A stretch of 45,135 bases of DNA from Spirochaeta lutea (GTDB lineage Bacteria > Spirochaetota > Spirochaetia > DSM-27196 > Salinispiraceae): contig NZ_JNUP01000067.1 in NCBI RefSeq assembly GCF_000758165.1, positions 1-45,135 of the forward strand, given 5' to 3'. A model generated the notes under the pieces. It was not told where the DNA came from. It made no database searches and saw only the letters and a program-made list of their open reading frames with translations. The translations under genes were made by a program, and so were the position numbers. Shown here piece by piece: positions 1-42,733 of this stretch (the stretch's first letter is position 1; every line of letters begins with the position of its first letter).

Positions 1-49
1 CTTCAAGGGTGGGGGGAGGTTTGTAAAAAGTTACAGGGTTTTGCGCACT
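1..49. repeat. Right end of the 103-bp inverted-repeat family (cut by window start)
   Basis: The stretch ends in TTTTGCGCACTA, the terminal signature of the dispersed repeat family described at 37687-37789. A TGTAA tract lies at the expected sub-terminal distance. The left half is outside the window, so only one arm can be seen. It lies upstream of the GyrI-like gene. Confidence 0.55.
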
Positions 50-118
50 ATGTATGACATACAGCTGTCGTAGTTCATGGCGTACACTCACCTAAAAGCC
101 AAGACAAGGAGAGTACCA

Positions 119-13653: not shown

Positions 13654-13687
13654 ACCAGAATTCCTGGGTTCCATCCGTTGGTTTTAT

Positions 13688-13790
13688 AGTGTGCAAAAGC
13701 TTATAACCTACCCTAGGTGTAGCGTAATTCTCGGACACACCTCACAGATATAGTGGTGAATGGGGGATTTCTTACAACCTTTTGCGCACT
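13688..13790. repeat. 103-bp inverted repeat copy (AGTGTGCAAAA ... TTTTGCGCACT)
   Basis: The left tip AGTGTGCAAAAGCTTATAACC pairs with the right tip TTACAACCTTTTGCGCACT. It is exactly 103 bp, and TA borders the GTG...CAC core on both sides (TATA at left, CTAT at right). It sits between the MATE gene and the convergent lipoprotein gene. The interior differs from the copies at 37687 and 39912, so it may represent a sub-family. Confidence 0.75.
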
Positions 13791-13794
13791 ATTC

Positions 13795-15053: not shown

Positions 15054-15079
15054 AGTGCGCAAAAGCAATTGGGGAACCC
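15054..15079. repeat. Left tip of the inverted-repeat family (partial)
   Basis: TAGTGCGCAAAAGCAATTG matches the TA-bordered left tip of the 103-bp repeats, but no right tip follows at the expected distance. It lies downstream of the reductase gene at 15139 and upstream of the lipoprotein gene at 14956. Confidence 0.4.
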
Positions 15080-15789: not shown

Positions 15790-15834
15790 CCGGTGTTCCG
15801 GTCTAGGGAATCTTTACAACCTTTTGCGCACTAT
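15790..15834. repeat. Right end of the inverted-repeat family
   Basis: TTTACAACCTTTTGCGCACTA at 15813-15833 is identical to the right tips at 13790 and 37789 over the last 16 bases. If the element were 103 bp it would start near 15730, where a weak TTGTAAAAAATTTAAC is found but no GTGCGC tip. I therefore support only the right arm. Confidence 0.55.
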
Positions 15835-21420: not shown

Positions 21421-21429
21421 GCCATCGAT

Positions 21430-21530
21430 TGTGCGCGAAAGGTTGTACCGTTGCACCCCGGCGACACCATCCATAGGCGGACTTATAGGTTGTCCTGCCA
21501 TATAGTGTCGTTTACAACCGTTTACGCACT
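21430..21530 (-). repeat. Inverted repeat copy, about 101 bp, reverse orientation
   Basis: TTGTGCGCGAAAGGTTGTACC at left and TTTACAACCGTTTACGCACTA at right. Its left sub-terminal part (GTTGCACCCCGGCGACACCAT) is the reverse complement of the right part of the 37687 copy, so it is the same element inverted. It lies between two convergent genes (diguanylate cyclase and acetyltransferase). Confidence 0.8.
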
Positions 21531-21540
21531 ACTTACGCCA

Positions 21541-22536: not shown

Positions 22537-22891
22537 TGGATCCTCCTTCGATCCTTGGCCGCGCCTGGTTTGGAGCAGCGGGGTAACGCTCCAGCATCAC
22601 CTTCCGATATCAGACGCCGGGGTAGCGTCAGAGGGTGGAACCGGTGCAACTTTTTGTGCACTCGGGTACTCGTTGCTGCACAAAAATGCTCTGAAGCAAA
22701 CCGGTTTAGCAGGACCGGCGCGGAGCCCGTTCATTTTTACCCCGGGAGTAGAGGTTCTACCCGGGAATAGAACCCCCGGCGCCAGAATCCGTCTGATCGC
22801 GTACACCCTAAAAGCCTGCCCTCAATTCTACCCCGGGAATTGTTCTTTCGTCTATTAATTATCCATTTCCCAGTGCGCACTGGGTAGCAGG
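22537..22891. other. Gene-free interval with several palindromes
   Basis: 355 bp without a supported gene. It contains a degenerate right-arm-like GTGCAACTTTTTGTGCACT (22644-22662), a GTTCTA...TAGAAC dyad (22754-22773) around CCCGGGAA, several CCCGGG words, and the perfect palindrome at 22869-22884. The upstream promoter of the acetyltransferase (minus strand) must lie near 22537-22600 but no good boxes are seen. Confidence 0.5.
22869..22884. repeat. Perfect 16-bp palindrome containing fused repeat tips
   Basis: CCCAGTGCGCACTGGG is a perfect palindrome. Its centre AGTGCGCACT equals the left tip AGTGCGC overlapping the right tip GCGCACT of the 103-bp family. It lies just downstream of the epimerase stop codon (22892). 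Confidence 0.6.
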
Positions 22892-28306: not shown

Positions 28307-28402
28307 GCAGCAAGAATGGGGAGATACTGCCGAGGGTTCCGCCGATACCCGAGCCTTTGGCCCTGTAATGCCAGTGCCAGCAGTTTTCGCAGTTCTTTCC
28401 TT

Positions 28403-28426
28403 AGTGCGCAAGCGTTTGTAAACCGC
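28403..28426. repeat. Left tip of the inverted-repeat family (partial)
   Basis: TTAGTGCGCAAGCGTTTGTAAAC resembles the left tip of the 37687 copy, including the downstream TGTAAAC. No right tip follows. It lies between two convergent genes. Confidence 0.45.
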
Positions 28427-28486
28427 ACCGGACGCCCGACCACCCCGGCAACCGTCAAGACCCGCCGGCCGTCTCCGGGTCGACCG

Positions 28487-29278
28487 CTACTCCAGAACCC
28501 CCCGATGCACCACCGACCCCGATGCCTGACACGCGGGCATAATCGTCAGTTCCGAAATCTGGACGTGTTCCGGCCGGGTTGCCACGTAGAGGACCGCGTC
28601 GGCCACATCTCCGGGCGAAAGGGGCACGAGCTGCTCATACACCTTTTTGGCCCGGGCCTCATCCCCATGGAACCGGACCTTGGAGAAATCGGTCTCCACC
28701 AGCCCAGGCTGAATGGTACACACCCGCAAACGGGTATTCACCGTATCGATGCGAAGCCCATCCTGGACCATCCGCACCCCGGCCTTTGTGGCGCAGTACA
28801 CCCCGCCCTTGGCGTAGGCAGCCATACCCGCCGTACTCCCCAGGGCGATGACGAGGGGCGCAGGTGAATCGGCCAGCATGAAGGGCACCAGATACCGGGT
28901 GGCCCATAAGAGCCCCTTGAGATTGGTATCAATCATCTGATCCCAGTCATCCACATCGCCCTCATGAACCGCATCCAGACCCCTGGCAAGTCCTGCATTG
29001 TTCACCAGAATATCCAGGGACAGACCCTCGGCAGATAGGATTTCGCCGACCTCCCGGGATGCCTCCTTAACCTGGTCGTGGCGCTGCATATCCACCTGTT
29101 TGGTCCAGACCCGGCAGCCCAAGCGAACCTGTAAATCCTCGGCCAGAACCGTTAGCTCGCCGCCGCTTCGGGACCACAGGATTAGATTGGCGCCACCCTC
29201 GGCCATCACCTGCACCACTGCCCGGCCGATCCCTCGACTTGCTCCGGTTACCAAAACATTCTTTCCTTCCAACATCAT
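28487..29278 (-). CDS. Short-chain dehydrogenase/reductase (YdfG-like)
   Basis: 263 residues, classical SDR. Cofactor loop NVLVTGASRGIGRAVVQVMA (TGxxxGIG; Arg after Ser favours NADP), NNAGLAR, catalytic Ser in IALGSTAGMAA, and YCATKAGV with the Tyr-x-x-x-Lys pair; then PGLVETDFSKVRFHGD and ATRPEHVQISELTIMP, close to the YdfG 3-hydroxy-acid dehydrogenase group. Tandem ATGs at 29278/29275 follow AAAGGAGAG. It is the third gene of a same-strand run with a B12-radical SAM protein 31 bp upstream and ornithine decarboxylase before that. Confidence 0.9.
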   Translation of the reverse strand: MMLEGKNVLVTGASRGIGRAVVQVMAEGGANLILWSRSGGELTVLAEDLQVRLGCRVWTKQVDMQRHDQVKEASREVGEILSAEGLSLDILVNNAGLARGLDAVHEGDVDDWDQMIDTNLKGLLWATRYLVPFMLADSPAPLVIALGSTAGMAAYAKGGVYCATKAGVRMVQDGLRIDTVNTRLRVCTIQPGLVETDFSKVRFHGDEARAKKVYEQLVPLSPGDVADAVLYVATRPEHVQISELTIMPACQASGSVVHRGVLE

Positions 29279-37621: not shown

Positions 37622-37686
37622 CGTTCTACCTCCTTACATTTCCCGGTCCACTGTTGCGAACCGGTTTATAACCACAAGAAAAACGT

Positions 37687-37789
37687 AGTGCGCAAATGGT
37701 TGTAAACGACACCACATATAGCGGAGCCACCGATAATTCCACCCAGGGGTGGTGTCGCCGGGGTGCAATGGTACAACCTTTTGCGCACT
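37687..37789 (+). repeat. Reference copy of the 103-bp inverted repeat
   Basis: Left tip AGTGCGCAAATGGTTGTA and right tip TACAACCTTTTGCGCACT match 17 of 18 positions when inverted. Inner arms also pair: CGACACCAC (37707-37715) with GTGGTGTCG (37749-37757). Left border is TA; right border is TC. The right half (GGTGTCGCCGGGGTGCAATG) is shared with copies at 39912, 21430 (inverted) and 40432. It lies between two genes and encodes nothing recognisable. Confidence 0.88.
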
Positions 37790-37815
37790 CTACAAGAAAA
37801 ACGGAACCTGGTGTT

Positions 37816-37840
37816 GGTGCGCAAAAGAATGTAAAGAACG
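37816..37840. repeat. Left tip of the inverted-repeat family (partial)
   Basis: GGTGCGCAAAAGAATGTAAAG is a left tip lying only 26 bp after the end of the reference copy, so two elements are adjacent here. No right tip is found before the downstream gene end at 37911. Confidence 0.45.
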
Positions 37841-37910
37841 CTAGGTATAGCCCCCATTGAAGGGGGCCACGCTACAAGAAGGGTCGTTAGCACCGGAGTC
37901 CGGGGACCCC

Positions 37911-38918
37911 CTAGGGCAACACCGACCCCGTTACGGCCCGGAGCATGGTTTCCAGATCGCCGTAGGCCCGCTCAAGACTGGTAGCGCCGTCGGACCTCCC
38001 CTGGAGGGCACGATACAGGGCCCGGTACTCATCCTCATACCCCCCGCCGTCGCTGTAATCGAAGATCTGTCCGTTGTGATGGAGAACGCCGTCTTTCACA
38101 AGCACCGAACCCCCGTCTCCCAAAACCCGGAGCTCATTCCGGTTCTCGCCCCCGGCACTGAAGGCCATATGCAGGTACCCCGAAAGGGGCGGAATTCCGC
38201 CCCGCCCCCGGGAGGTAAACAGGGCCGACAGACCGTCAGTCCGACCGATGGCCGGGTTAACCCGGGTGGTCACCGCGCCGCGGACATCTAAATCACCAAA
38301 AACATCCCGCAGAGCGGCAATATTATGCACCCCTGCATCGGTCACAAAACCGCCCTCGTACTGATGATTGATGCGCCAGCTGGTTTGGGCGTATTTATTT
38401 TCTTTGATGATGATTTTCTGCCAGGCCCGCCATTCCACATGGAAGGGGGTTCCAATGACACCGCTCTCCACCAAGGCTGCCAGCTCGCGGTACACCCGGC
38501 GGTAGCGGAAATTCTCCGCGACCATGGCGACCTGCCCGGGATGGTTCCCCGCCAGTTCTAAGATGTTCCGGGCCGAGTCCAGGGTGTGGGCCAGGGGCTT
38601 TTCCAAAAACAGGTGTTTCCCCGCTCCAAGCACCAAACCGGCGGCCTCTTCGTTCCGCTCTACGGGCAGCATGACCACCACCACATCAACATCCCGCTGA
38701 TTGACGAACTCCCGGGTATCGGTATGCACCCCCACGGGGCTGCCGTATTCGGACTCAAGCAGAGCCGCCATGGACTCGGCCTTCCCGGGGGTGTGATTAC
38801 AGACCCGGGTAACTCGGAACTCGTCTTTTAACGCCTTGATTGCCGGCCAGTGCAGATCCCTGGCGGCTATGCCGCAGCCCAAGAGGCCCAAACGAACCGG
38901 TGACTGAATTGTACTCAT
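37911..38918 (-). CDS. Gfo/Idh/MocA-family oxidoreductase
   Basis: 335 residues. N-terminal Rossmann domain RLGLLGCGIAARDLHWPAIK, then VDVVVVMLPVERNEEAA and the family signature GKHLFLEKPLAHTL (EKP). The C-terminal alpha/beta domain contains GGFVTDAGVHNIAALRDVFG, where Asp and His of DxGxH are the usual catalytic residues. It is an NAD(P)-dependent sugar or inositol dehydrogenase; the substrate is not clear. AAGGAG precedes ATG 38918. A 289-bp gap holding the repeats separates it from the cellulase gene downstream. Confidence 0.92.
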   Translation of the reverse strand: MSTIQSPVRLGLLGCGIAARDLHWPAIKALKDEFRVTRVCNHTPGKAESMAALLESEYGSPVGVHTDTREFVNQRDVDVVVVMLPVERNEEAAGLVLGAGKHLFLEKPLAHTLDSARNILELAGNHPGQVAMVAENFRYRRVYRELAALVESGVIGTPFHVEWRAWQKIIIKENKYAQTSWRINHQYEGGFVTDAGVHNIAALRDVFGDLDVRGAVTTRVNPAIGRTDGLSALFTSRGRGGIPPLSGYLHMAFSAGGENRNELRVLGDGGSVLVKDGVLHHNGQIFDYSDGGGYEDEYRALYRALQGRSDGATSLERAYGDLETMLRAVTGSVLP

Positions 38919-39082
38919 GAAAATCTCCTTGGGAGCCCCGCCTGGGAGGAACCGTTCCCGGGAAACATCAGAGCCCCTTACTTAGTTGTATCAAGCAACT
39001 TTCTACTTGTCAAAGTTTTTGTTGGAAAATCGTACAAACCTCAGGGCAGGCGGCATTTCATGCCATACGACGTCCCGGTCCG

Positions 39083-39880
39083 TCAGAACGCCAGAGCCTC
39101 TCCGTCCTCGGGAATCCTTACCCGCTGCTCCAGCCCCTGGTCTTCCAGGAGCCGCCGCAGTCCCGAACGGCTCAGCCTGCAGTGATCGATGGCGTCCATG
39201 TGATTTGCCACCACCGTTCCCCGGGAAATCCGCACCAGGTCTACAATCTCCTGCTCATCCATGAGCACCGGGGATCCGACATCAAAACGCGCCACCCCCG
39301 TTGCCGCCACGATGATATCGGGCTGAACCTCTCTGATAAAATCCCGGATCCGGGGGGTTAACACCGAATCTCCCATGAGATACAGACTCGGTTCCCCTGG
39401 CATGGAGATAAAATACCCCACACCGTGCTCCATGAGGAATCTCATGAAGCCCCGGGCATGCAGGGCGGGTACCGTCCGGATCCGCCCTCCGAACCAGGCC
39501 TGGTCCTCCATGGTCTTGGGACCCACCATCCGGCAGTCCAGCCCCCTCTTTGCCAGAAAACCTGCGTCCCGGGGGGAGCAGTACACCGGCAGGTTCCCGG
39601 CACGCAGAAAGGCGGTTCCCCGGGAGTCCAAATGATCCACATGTCCTTTGCGGCAATGGGTTATCAGGGCTGCGCTGATCCGGGGTTTAAGGGATTCAAA
39701 CGCCCCAGGCACGGGCACCAGGGGGTTCTTCCGGGGAATCCCGGTTCCCCGGCCCTGGGAATCCTTCCCATAGAGGAACCGGGGAAGGGTCCCCGGGGAT
39801 GCGAGCATGGGATCTACGAGAATATGCTGATCACCCCCCTGGATAACCAGGGTGGCATTACGGATCTGATGAATAGTCAT
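39083..39880 (-). CDS. UlaG-like metallo-beta-lactamase-fold hydrolase
   Basis: 265 residues. Starts MTIHQIRNATLVIQGGDQHI and ILVDPML, as in the UlaG/YtnP-like branch whose strands begin with a short 'I.H...' motif. The metal motif is THCRKGHVDHLDSRG, in which HxHxDH has become H-(4)-HVDHLD; further ligands probably His in PALHARGFM, Asp in YLMGDSVLTP and His in VVANHMDAIDH. It acts on an unknown lactone or phosphodiester in the cytoplasm. AAGGAGG lies before the ATG. It is divergent from the MerR gene at 40082, with a repeat copy between them. Confidence 0.85.
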   Translation of the reverse strand: MTIHQIRNATLVIQGGDQHILVDPMLASPGTLPRFLYGKDSQGRGTGIPRKNPLVPVPGAFESLKPRISAALITHCRKGHVDHLDSRGTAFLRAGNLPVYCSPRDAGFLAKRGLDCRMVGPKTMEDQAWFGGRIRTVPALHARGFMRFLMEHGVGYFISMPGEPSLYLMGDSVLTPRIRDFIREVQPDIIVAATGVARFDVGSPVLMDEQEIVDLVRISRGTVVANHMDAIDHCRLSRSGLRRLLEDQGLEQRVRIPEDGEALAF

Positions 39881-39911
39881 ACGTCCTCCTTAGGGTAGAA
39901 TTACTCTCTTT

Positions 39912-40014
39912 GTGTGCAAACGGTTGTAACCTACACCGGATACAGCGCCGCAACCGAGAAACCTACCCTTTGGTGGTGTCGCCGGGATGCAACGGTACAA
40001 CTGTTTGCGCACTA
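39912..40014 (+). repeat. 103-bp inverted repeat copy
   Basis: TGTGTGCAAACGGTTGTAACC at left and GGTACAACTGTTTGCGCACTA at right, exactly 103 bp. It shares GGTGGTGTCGCCGGGATGCAA with the reference copy (37687) in the same orientation. It fills most of the interval between the divergent hydrolase and merR-type genes, so their promoters must lie at its edges or inside it. Confidence 0.85.
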
Positions 40015-40043
40015 TAAATCACCCTAAGAAAAACGCTACACTA

Positions 40044-40081: not shown

Positions 40082-40432
40082 GTGAAGGTTTCAGAGGTAG
40101 AACAGCAGACAGGGGTTAGCCGGGACACCCTCCGGTACTATGAACGGGAGGGGCTCATAAGCCCGCCGCCGCGCAATACATCGGGATTCCGCAACTATAC
40201 CCATGCCATCATTGACGAGATACGGTTCATCCGGCAGGCGAAGGACCTGGGATTTTCCCTGGATCAGATCCGCCGGGCCCGGGAGACCCTGGAGGCCCAG
40301 GGCCGGCTTTGCCCGGAATTCAGCAGGGAGCTTGAATCCCGCCGAGATTTTTTTACCCAACGCATCCGTCAGGACCAGGACAGGCTTCAGACCATCCAGC
40401 GCCTGTTAACCCGGATCTTACCCCGGGACTAG
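40082..40432 (+). CDS. MerR-family regulator
   Basis: 116 residues. The N-terminal winged helix VSEVEQQTGVSRDTLRYYEREGLI is the classical MerR recognition region. A wing (NTSGFRNYTHAIIDEIRFI) and the coiled-coil dimer helix (RRDFFTQRIRQDQDRLQTIQ) follow. There is no large effector domain and only one Cys (LCPEF), so metal sensing by a Cys cluster is unlikely; it resembles small redox- or aldehyde-responsive MerR proteins. GTG start with an AAAGGA tract. Its stop codon is the first part of a repeat end. The target is perhaps the divergent metallo-hydrolase gene. Confidence 0.9.
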   Translation: MKVSEVEQQTGVSRDTLRYYEREGLISPPPRNTSGFRNYTHAIIDEIRFIRQAKDLGFSLDQIRRARETLEAQGRLCPEFSRELESRRDFFTQRIRQDQDRLQTIQRLLTRILPRD

Positions 40433-40471
40433 GTGTCTCCGGGATGCGACGTTACACGCCTTTACGCACCA
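40432..40471 (+). repeat. Right half of the inverted-repeat family
   Basis: GGTGTCTCCGGGATGCGACG followed by TTACACGCCTTTACGCACC corresponds to the right 40 bp of the copies at 37687 and 39912. The preceding left half is replaced by coding sequence, and the MerR stop codon touches its start, so the element end may have shaped the gene's 3' end. Confidence 0.6.
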
Positions 40472-42291: not shown

Positions 42292-42733
42292 AGGTTCCTC
42301 CCGGCAGCGCATCCGCTCAGGTATGTTACCCTCCCCAAATTGACGGGAAGCCTGGGCCAGCATGAGCCTGCCTCATAACGTTCTTCCAAAATGCGCAACT
42401 AAATGATAAGCATCCCGAATACACCGGGGTCGTTCCGTATCTATCCGGATAGTGTTTCCAGAAAACAGGCTGCCGCAATTCTGCGCACTCGACGAATCTT
42501 ACTACAAGATCCGTTTTATCATAAAAATAGTCAACTTTTTAAGGGGATTCCACTGCCCGTACAACCCCTTACCCGGCATGCTTTCCTCTCTAGATGCAGC
42601 GGCTCCATCCCCGCTGGGATGTGCTACATCTCCATAGGAATAGGCTGTTTACGCAATAACCTGACTTATTTAGTTTGATTTTCCTAACCATCGATCTTAG
42701 GATTAGTTCTTAATAATTTCTTTGGAGGTAGTA
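42292..42733. other. Divergent intergenic region between mhqO-like and DUF1566 lipoprotein genes
   Basis: 442 bp without a supported gene. It holds one repeat copy (42390-42489). From about 42490 to 42733 the sequence becomes AT-rich and must carry the lipoprotein promoter; CTTAGGATTAGTTCTTAA near 42693-42710 is loosely similar to sites before the other lipoproteins. No terminator is expected here as both genes are transcribed outward. Confidence 0.45.
42390..42489. repeat. Diverged inverted repeat copy, about 100 bp
   Basis: Left tip AATGCGCAAC and right tip TTCTGCGCACT bound 100 bp. The interior differs from other copies but has its own dyad CTATCCGGATAG (42441-42452). It is more decayed than the copies at 37687 and 39912. 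Confidence 0.55.

Follow-up and report, generated by a model that had tools for sequence, protein, structure and literature searches.

The dispersed inverted repeats of the window, the whole 45,135-nt stretch analysed here (positions 1-45135 of contig C64), are copies of a real MITE family: non-autonomous 109-bp elements with IS ends and no gene. This family has very probably been mobilised in trans by an IS of the same genome that encodes a transposase with a zinc-ribbon N-terminus. A non-autonomous MITE had been proposed in an earlier note on this DNA, and we retain that reading because of the copy number, the fixed length, the inverted repeats, the target duplication, the intergenic spread and a co-resident IS that shares the ends. 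The same note assigned the element to the IS630/Tc1-mariner type with a TA duplication, and that part of the proposal had to be abandoned.

Copies, unit and target duplication

The genome is a 3.53-Mb draft in 69 contigs, in the whole of which the 17-nt tip has 341 matches with at most two mismatches, while the reversed control has none. Copy-level statistics come from 1.17 Mb read as stretches (about one third of the genome), and the remainder was searched only. A family profile identifies 122 loci at E<1e-3 and, on the reversed sequence, a single match of E 5.8. Extrapolation from the densities in three contigs that were read out at length gives about 250-290 MITE copies genome-wide, of which about 245 would be nearly complete. 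Within the window, the tip AGTGCGCAAA is matched 14 times with no more than one mismatch, against 1.37 expected. The core delimited by TGCGCA...TGCGCA measures 99 bp in 78 of 111 paired copies of the 1.17 Mb and 100 bp in another 15; a 99-bp core corresponds to 103 bp from AGTG to CACT. Both observations on which the earlier note had staked the family, further copies elsewhere in the genome and a clustering of lengths near 103 bp, were thus made.

The MITE unit consists of a core of some 65 nt framed by a 19-nt inverted repeat, AGTGCGCAAAAGGTTGTAA, beyond which each end carries three variable bases; conservation in the arm consensus is 85-99% at most positions. At 109 bp it falls within the 50-600 bp usual for bacterial MITEs and has no coding capacity for a transposase. 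The nearest relative of any copy is at most about 97% identical, and most of the amplification is therefore not recent.

Nine base pairs of duplicated target define the limits of this unit. When left and right flanks of 102 copies were compared, a single identity diagonal appeared, which covers nine positions and begins three bases beyond AGTG/CACT; the element must therefore be 109 bp long, including its 3-nt tips. The duplication is perfect (9/9) in 14 of the 102 copies and reaches at least 7/9 in 46, compared with 0.02 and about 1.2 copies, respectively, under shuffled pairing. Its consensus in the best copies is TAANNNTTA-like. No empty sites were recovered by joining flanks in the sequence examined, and no genome from the genus itself turned up among the relatives. 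In 89% of ends a T precedes AGTG and an A follows CACT, and these two bases had been taken for a TA duplication. They are the innermost base of the 3-nt tip (mostly not-A, purine, T) and lie inside the element, the real duplication being 9 bp long and situated 3 nt further out.

The near-complete copies reported at 13688-13790, 21430-21530, 37687-37789 and 39912-40014 are recovered by the profile with 56-109 bits on the better strand, these copies being among its training sequences. The best preserved lies at 37684..37792 on the plus strand (109 bp with tips CGT and CTA, E=1e-31), between two identical 9-bp target duplications, CAAGAAAAA, at 37675..37683 and 37793..37801 (plus strand). The copy at 21427..21533 (E=3e-23) is on the minus strand, inverted relative to the former as had been described; it sits between convergent ORFs and keeps 8/9 of its 9-bp duplication (TAAGCCATC/TACGCCATC). 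In two further 109-bp copies on the plus strand the duplication has decayed. One, at 13685..13793 with its 3-nt tips (profile 13686-13792, E=2e-15), lies between convergent ORFs and has flanks agreeing at 1/9 positions; the other, at 39909..40017 (E=5e-25), lies between the divergent ORFs 39083-39880 (-) and 40082-40432 (+) and has flanks agreeing at 6/9.

Most of the single arms listed earlier are also partial copies, all on the plus strand. Those at 37816 and 40432-40471 correspond, at E<1e-3, to a degraded lone left arm at 37815..37851 (E=3.6e-4) and to a right part at 40409..40470 (E=4.8e-4) that overlaps the end of the MerR-like ORF 40082-40432. Those at 15790-15834 and 28403 are weak (E 0.002-0.005): a lone right arm at 15805..15834 (E=0.0019) and a lone left arm at 28401..28432 (E=0.0054), the latter within the mechanical ORF 28316-28867. 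The list lacked one partial copy with a single end, at 22593..22662 (plus strand, E=6e-4). Two entries found no support: the supposed copy at 42390-42489 gave no profile match even with filters off and its flanks agree at 4/9, and the arm at 15054 scores 4.5 bits.

The likely parent IS

The segment at 1-49, also listed as an arm, belongs to something larger than a MITE. Contigs C1, C22 and C35 open with these same 49 bases, and positions 1..52 (minus strand) form the 5' end of a longer multicopy IS, with the inverted repeat AGTGCGCAAAACCCTGTAACTTTTT and a 3-nt tip, that is also met at other contig ends. By analogy with 21 aligned IS ends, the adjoining positions 53..61 would be its 9-bp target duplication, TATGACATA, the partner end being unassembled. 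Contig C64 begins inside the IS that we propose as parent of the MITE.

This IS is a TAGTGCGC-ended multicopy element whose copies break the assembly, so that it is read at contig ends through two end sequences, AGTGCGCAAAACCCTGTAACTTTTTACAAACC and AGTGCGCAAAAGCCTGTAACTTTTTTGTGCC. All 21 such ends (eleven 5' and ten 3') carry AGTGCGCAAAA(G/C)CCTGTAACTTTTT and the same kind of 3-nt tip as the MITE, and the 9-mers beside them have the WAANNNTTW preference, or TAANNNTTA-like composition, of MITE targets. One 5' and one 3' end have a perfect 9-mer, TAACGATTT, in common, as expected for the two sides of one insertion. The sequence shared by MITE and IS amounts to only about 24 nt. The nearly identical ends, the tip layout and the target preference make this IS, from its sequence, the likely parent of the MITE.

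The 3' end of the IS encodes a protein C-terminus with 36-48% identity to intact 380- and 405-aa proteins of G002, a relative within the bacterial family whose genome is complete. In the genome studied here the IS is seen only as ends and as the last 48-86 transposase residues, and many short contigs read N; since it was never assembled whole, we infer that an intact transposase is present. An IS of the kind that the earlier note had suggested looking for is present here in many copies with nearly the same ends, and an intact homologous IS in the relative G002.

At the start of L079 (contig C60) and the end of L268 (contig C68), IS copies are inserted into another IS end and beside a degraded MITE arm, a preferred target, TGTAACTTTTT, being present within the inverted repeat. 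The contig ends of C68 and C46, a nested IS/MITE insertion, have a 9-mer in common, but their joined flanks rebuild no recognisable MITE. Elsewhere in the genome, open frames of 2073 aa (L206, C35) and 1128 aa (L214, C50) reach contig ends and apparently encode large repetitive proteins.

The transposase matched no Pfam family. In NCBIfam, IS1 and ISL3 matches below cut-off fall at its zinc-ribbon N-terminus, and hhalign aligned this N-terminus with IS1 InsA (E=1.1e-5, probability 82%). The catalytic domain did not match IS1 InsB in a single-sequence comparison, which is a weak one. Candidates for a D...D...E triad (DGFES, TDxH, RETV-like) are common to three full-length homologues, and a DDE catalytic domain is probable. 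The parent IS is left unclassified here; its N-terminus is IS1/ISL3-like and its catalytic type is presumptive. Searches of plasmids, phages, viral contigs and the PDB found nothing for this transposase. Among other transposase families, IS1 (PF03400, DDE_Tnp_IS1) is absent from the genome and DDE_Tnp_1 is represented by one partial IS5-like remnant only, which lacks MITE ends. ISLre2 (PF06782) and IS903-like (PF13737) models had no genome match, but the controls were silent too, so that absence is not shown for these two.

G002 carries the intact 380-aa transposase in four copies and the 405-aa one in eight. The IS encoding the latter is about 1.4 kb long, has inverted repeats and tips AGTGCACCAAAGCTTGTAA (compared with AGTGCGCAAAAGGTTGTAA in the MITE), and is flanked, in two of its eight copies, by perfect 9-bp duplications placed exactly three bases beyond AGTG. 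Many MITEs of 131 and 141/142 bp in G002 bear the tips of this IS, with a duplication that is mostly unrecognisable (best 7/9). G001 and G003, from a second genus, contain tip-bounded elements of 93-145 bp whose duplications are mostly decayed. Judged by their ends, IS-type termini and MITEs of this kind are found in at least three genera within the family. The exact 19-mer of the genome studied here was not found in the 60 relatives searched; the exact 18-mer had three single matches in unrelated taxa among 84,980 named genomes, which is chance level, and none in viral contigs. G002 also holds a second IS, at loci L219, L226, L230 and L232, with the homologous 380-aa transposase and other ends (CGCCCCAAACAATGTGGAA), for which no clear duplication was found.

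In a plausible course of transposition, the IS would first supply its transposase, a protein of some 380-405 aa that has a zinc ribbon at its N-terminus and probably a DDE catalytic domain. This protein would bind to the IS at its inverted repeat, AGTGCGCAAAAGSYTGTAA, and in trans to the corresponding repeat of the MITE, and would cut three bases outside the repeat. The element would then be joined to a 9-bp staggered cut at a TAANNNTTA-like site, with repair duplicating the site, and selection against insertions in genes would leave most copies between genes. Both the mobilisation of the MITE by this IS and the individual steps of catalysis are inferences.

The tips may hold a clue to how the ends are processed. 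Between IS copies, 36% of 5' and 62% of 3' tip positions are different, compared with about 1% of positions in the adjacent 25-26 nt. For MITE pairs chosen for core similarity, differences affect about 41% of the two outer tip bases, 15% of held-out core sites, and about 68% of duplication or unrelated flank positions. Tips are shared more often by similar than by dissimilar copies (0.40-0.47 vs 0.12-0.14), so that inheritance and replacement both contribute to them. A mutual-information test found no dependence of the tip on the partner end or the target flank as its source. Taken together, this suggests that the outer tip bases are partly rewritten during transposition, and tips that change so fast in the interval separating the inverted repeat from the duplication point to an unusual, testable step in end processing. 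That the parent represents an undescribed IS family, defined by a 380-410-aa zinc-ribbon DDE-like transposase without a Pfam model and by three end bases that change far faster than the element, can be put forward only tentatively.

Alternative origins of the family

Derivation from an IS630/Tc1-mariner element that duplicates TA, as first proposed, has almost no probability left. Its attraction lay in the conserved T and A at the ends, and the 9-bp duplication lying 3 nt outside AGTG/CACT was counted as already refuting the TA reading. Moreover, the IS630 model (PF13358/DDE_3) found no transposase in this genome, whereas control genomes did match, and the IS with MITE-type ends has another transposase, of the zinc-ribbon kind. 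There is a very slight chance that IS256-family elements resident in this genome mobilised the MITE instead. Transposases of IS256 type are numerous in it, one type being present in at least 13 identical copies, and IS256 elements generate 8-9-bp target duplications. The MITE tip, however, bounds none of the IS256 transposase loci examined here, and a related IS256 element of G007 has the ends GGTAGTGTCAAATATC and flanks with 8-bp repeats. A third view, also very unlikely though less so, is that the repeats are palindromes of REP/BIME type that depend on a RAYT/Y1 transposase for their movement, or that they form a family of functional RNAs or terminators. Folded as RNA, MITE copies score well (z -2.4 to -4.6), but such foldability is expected from the inverted repeats alone; no Rfam family reached threshold in the window. 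The 9-bp target duplications also argue against it, as Y1 transposases are not known to make them.

Genomic position was weighed as well. MITE midpoints fall outside mechanical ORFs of at least 100 aa in 109 of 122 copies, even though such ORFs make up 87% of the sequence, so the statement that all copies are intergenic applies to most of them, the other 13 having their midpoints inside ORFs. Gaps between convergent ORFs are mildly enriched (34 of 95 copies vs 25% of intergenic bases, p=0.014), as a terminator family might be, but promoter avoidance alone would yield this bias. Single copies may secondarily be used as terminators. A selfish element, kept where it is least harmful, remains the simplest reading of the MITE family.

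As to the IS256 elements themselves, the multicopy type (a 420-aa frame with identical scores) lies mostly at contig ends, for example at L139 and L141-L149, and is found on contigs C22, C38, C43-C46, C52, C57, C60, C63, C66, C67 and C69. Two further IS256 types occur in the genome, together with a single degraded copy. Beside an IS256 transposase at L138 (C39), a minus-strand ORF looks reverse-transcriptase-like by eye, a possible group II intron. The G007 element, at loci L151 and L171, is 1341 bp long with ends GGTAGTGTCAAATATCTTGCGCAAA and 8-bp flank repeats.

Comparison with known elements

The MITE itself is an ordinary kind of element; its parent is unusual. This study adds a high-copy MITE family and connects it with the IS that is its likely parent. 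The connection extends over three genera belonging to one bacterial family, and tip variant and MITE lengths are particular to each genus. The study also corrects a plausible TA/IS630 assignment, and indicates that a flanking duplication must be measured across many copies.

Correia elements, RUP and similar IS630-type MITEs are about 100 bp long, intergenic and high in copy number, with TA duplications and IS630 transposases. The present family resembles them in size, location and abundance, and differs in its 9-bp duplication and in that an IS630 transposase was not found. IS1 elements produce 8-9-bp duplications, and the parent transposase may resemble InsA in its zinc-ribbon/HTH N-terminus. 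Unlike IS1, it has no detectable InsB match, DDE_Tnp_IS1 is absent, its 380-410 aa lie in one frame and the ends are different.

QMITE2 of Coxiella has inverted repeats of 23-29 bp, 7-9-bp duplications and a core of 113-145 bp (PMC10969869). It is similar to our family in its inverted repeats and duplication size, and differs in its longer core and in having no link to the IS described here. A further parallel in organisation may be drawn with MITEAba12 and ISAba12 of Acinetobacter, where a MITE of 111-114 bp generates 9-bp duplications that are kept in about 40% of copies (PMC6382973). In both systems a short MITE is tied to a co-resident IS by terminal repeats and 9-bp duplications. ISAba12 tips, however, have another sequence (GGCTTTGTTGC...; PMC6382973), and the family described here is distinguished by hundreds of copies in one genome, by another transposase and by 3-nt variable tips between repeat and duplication.
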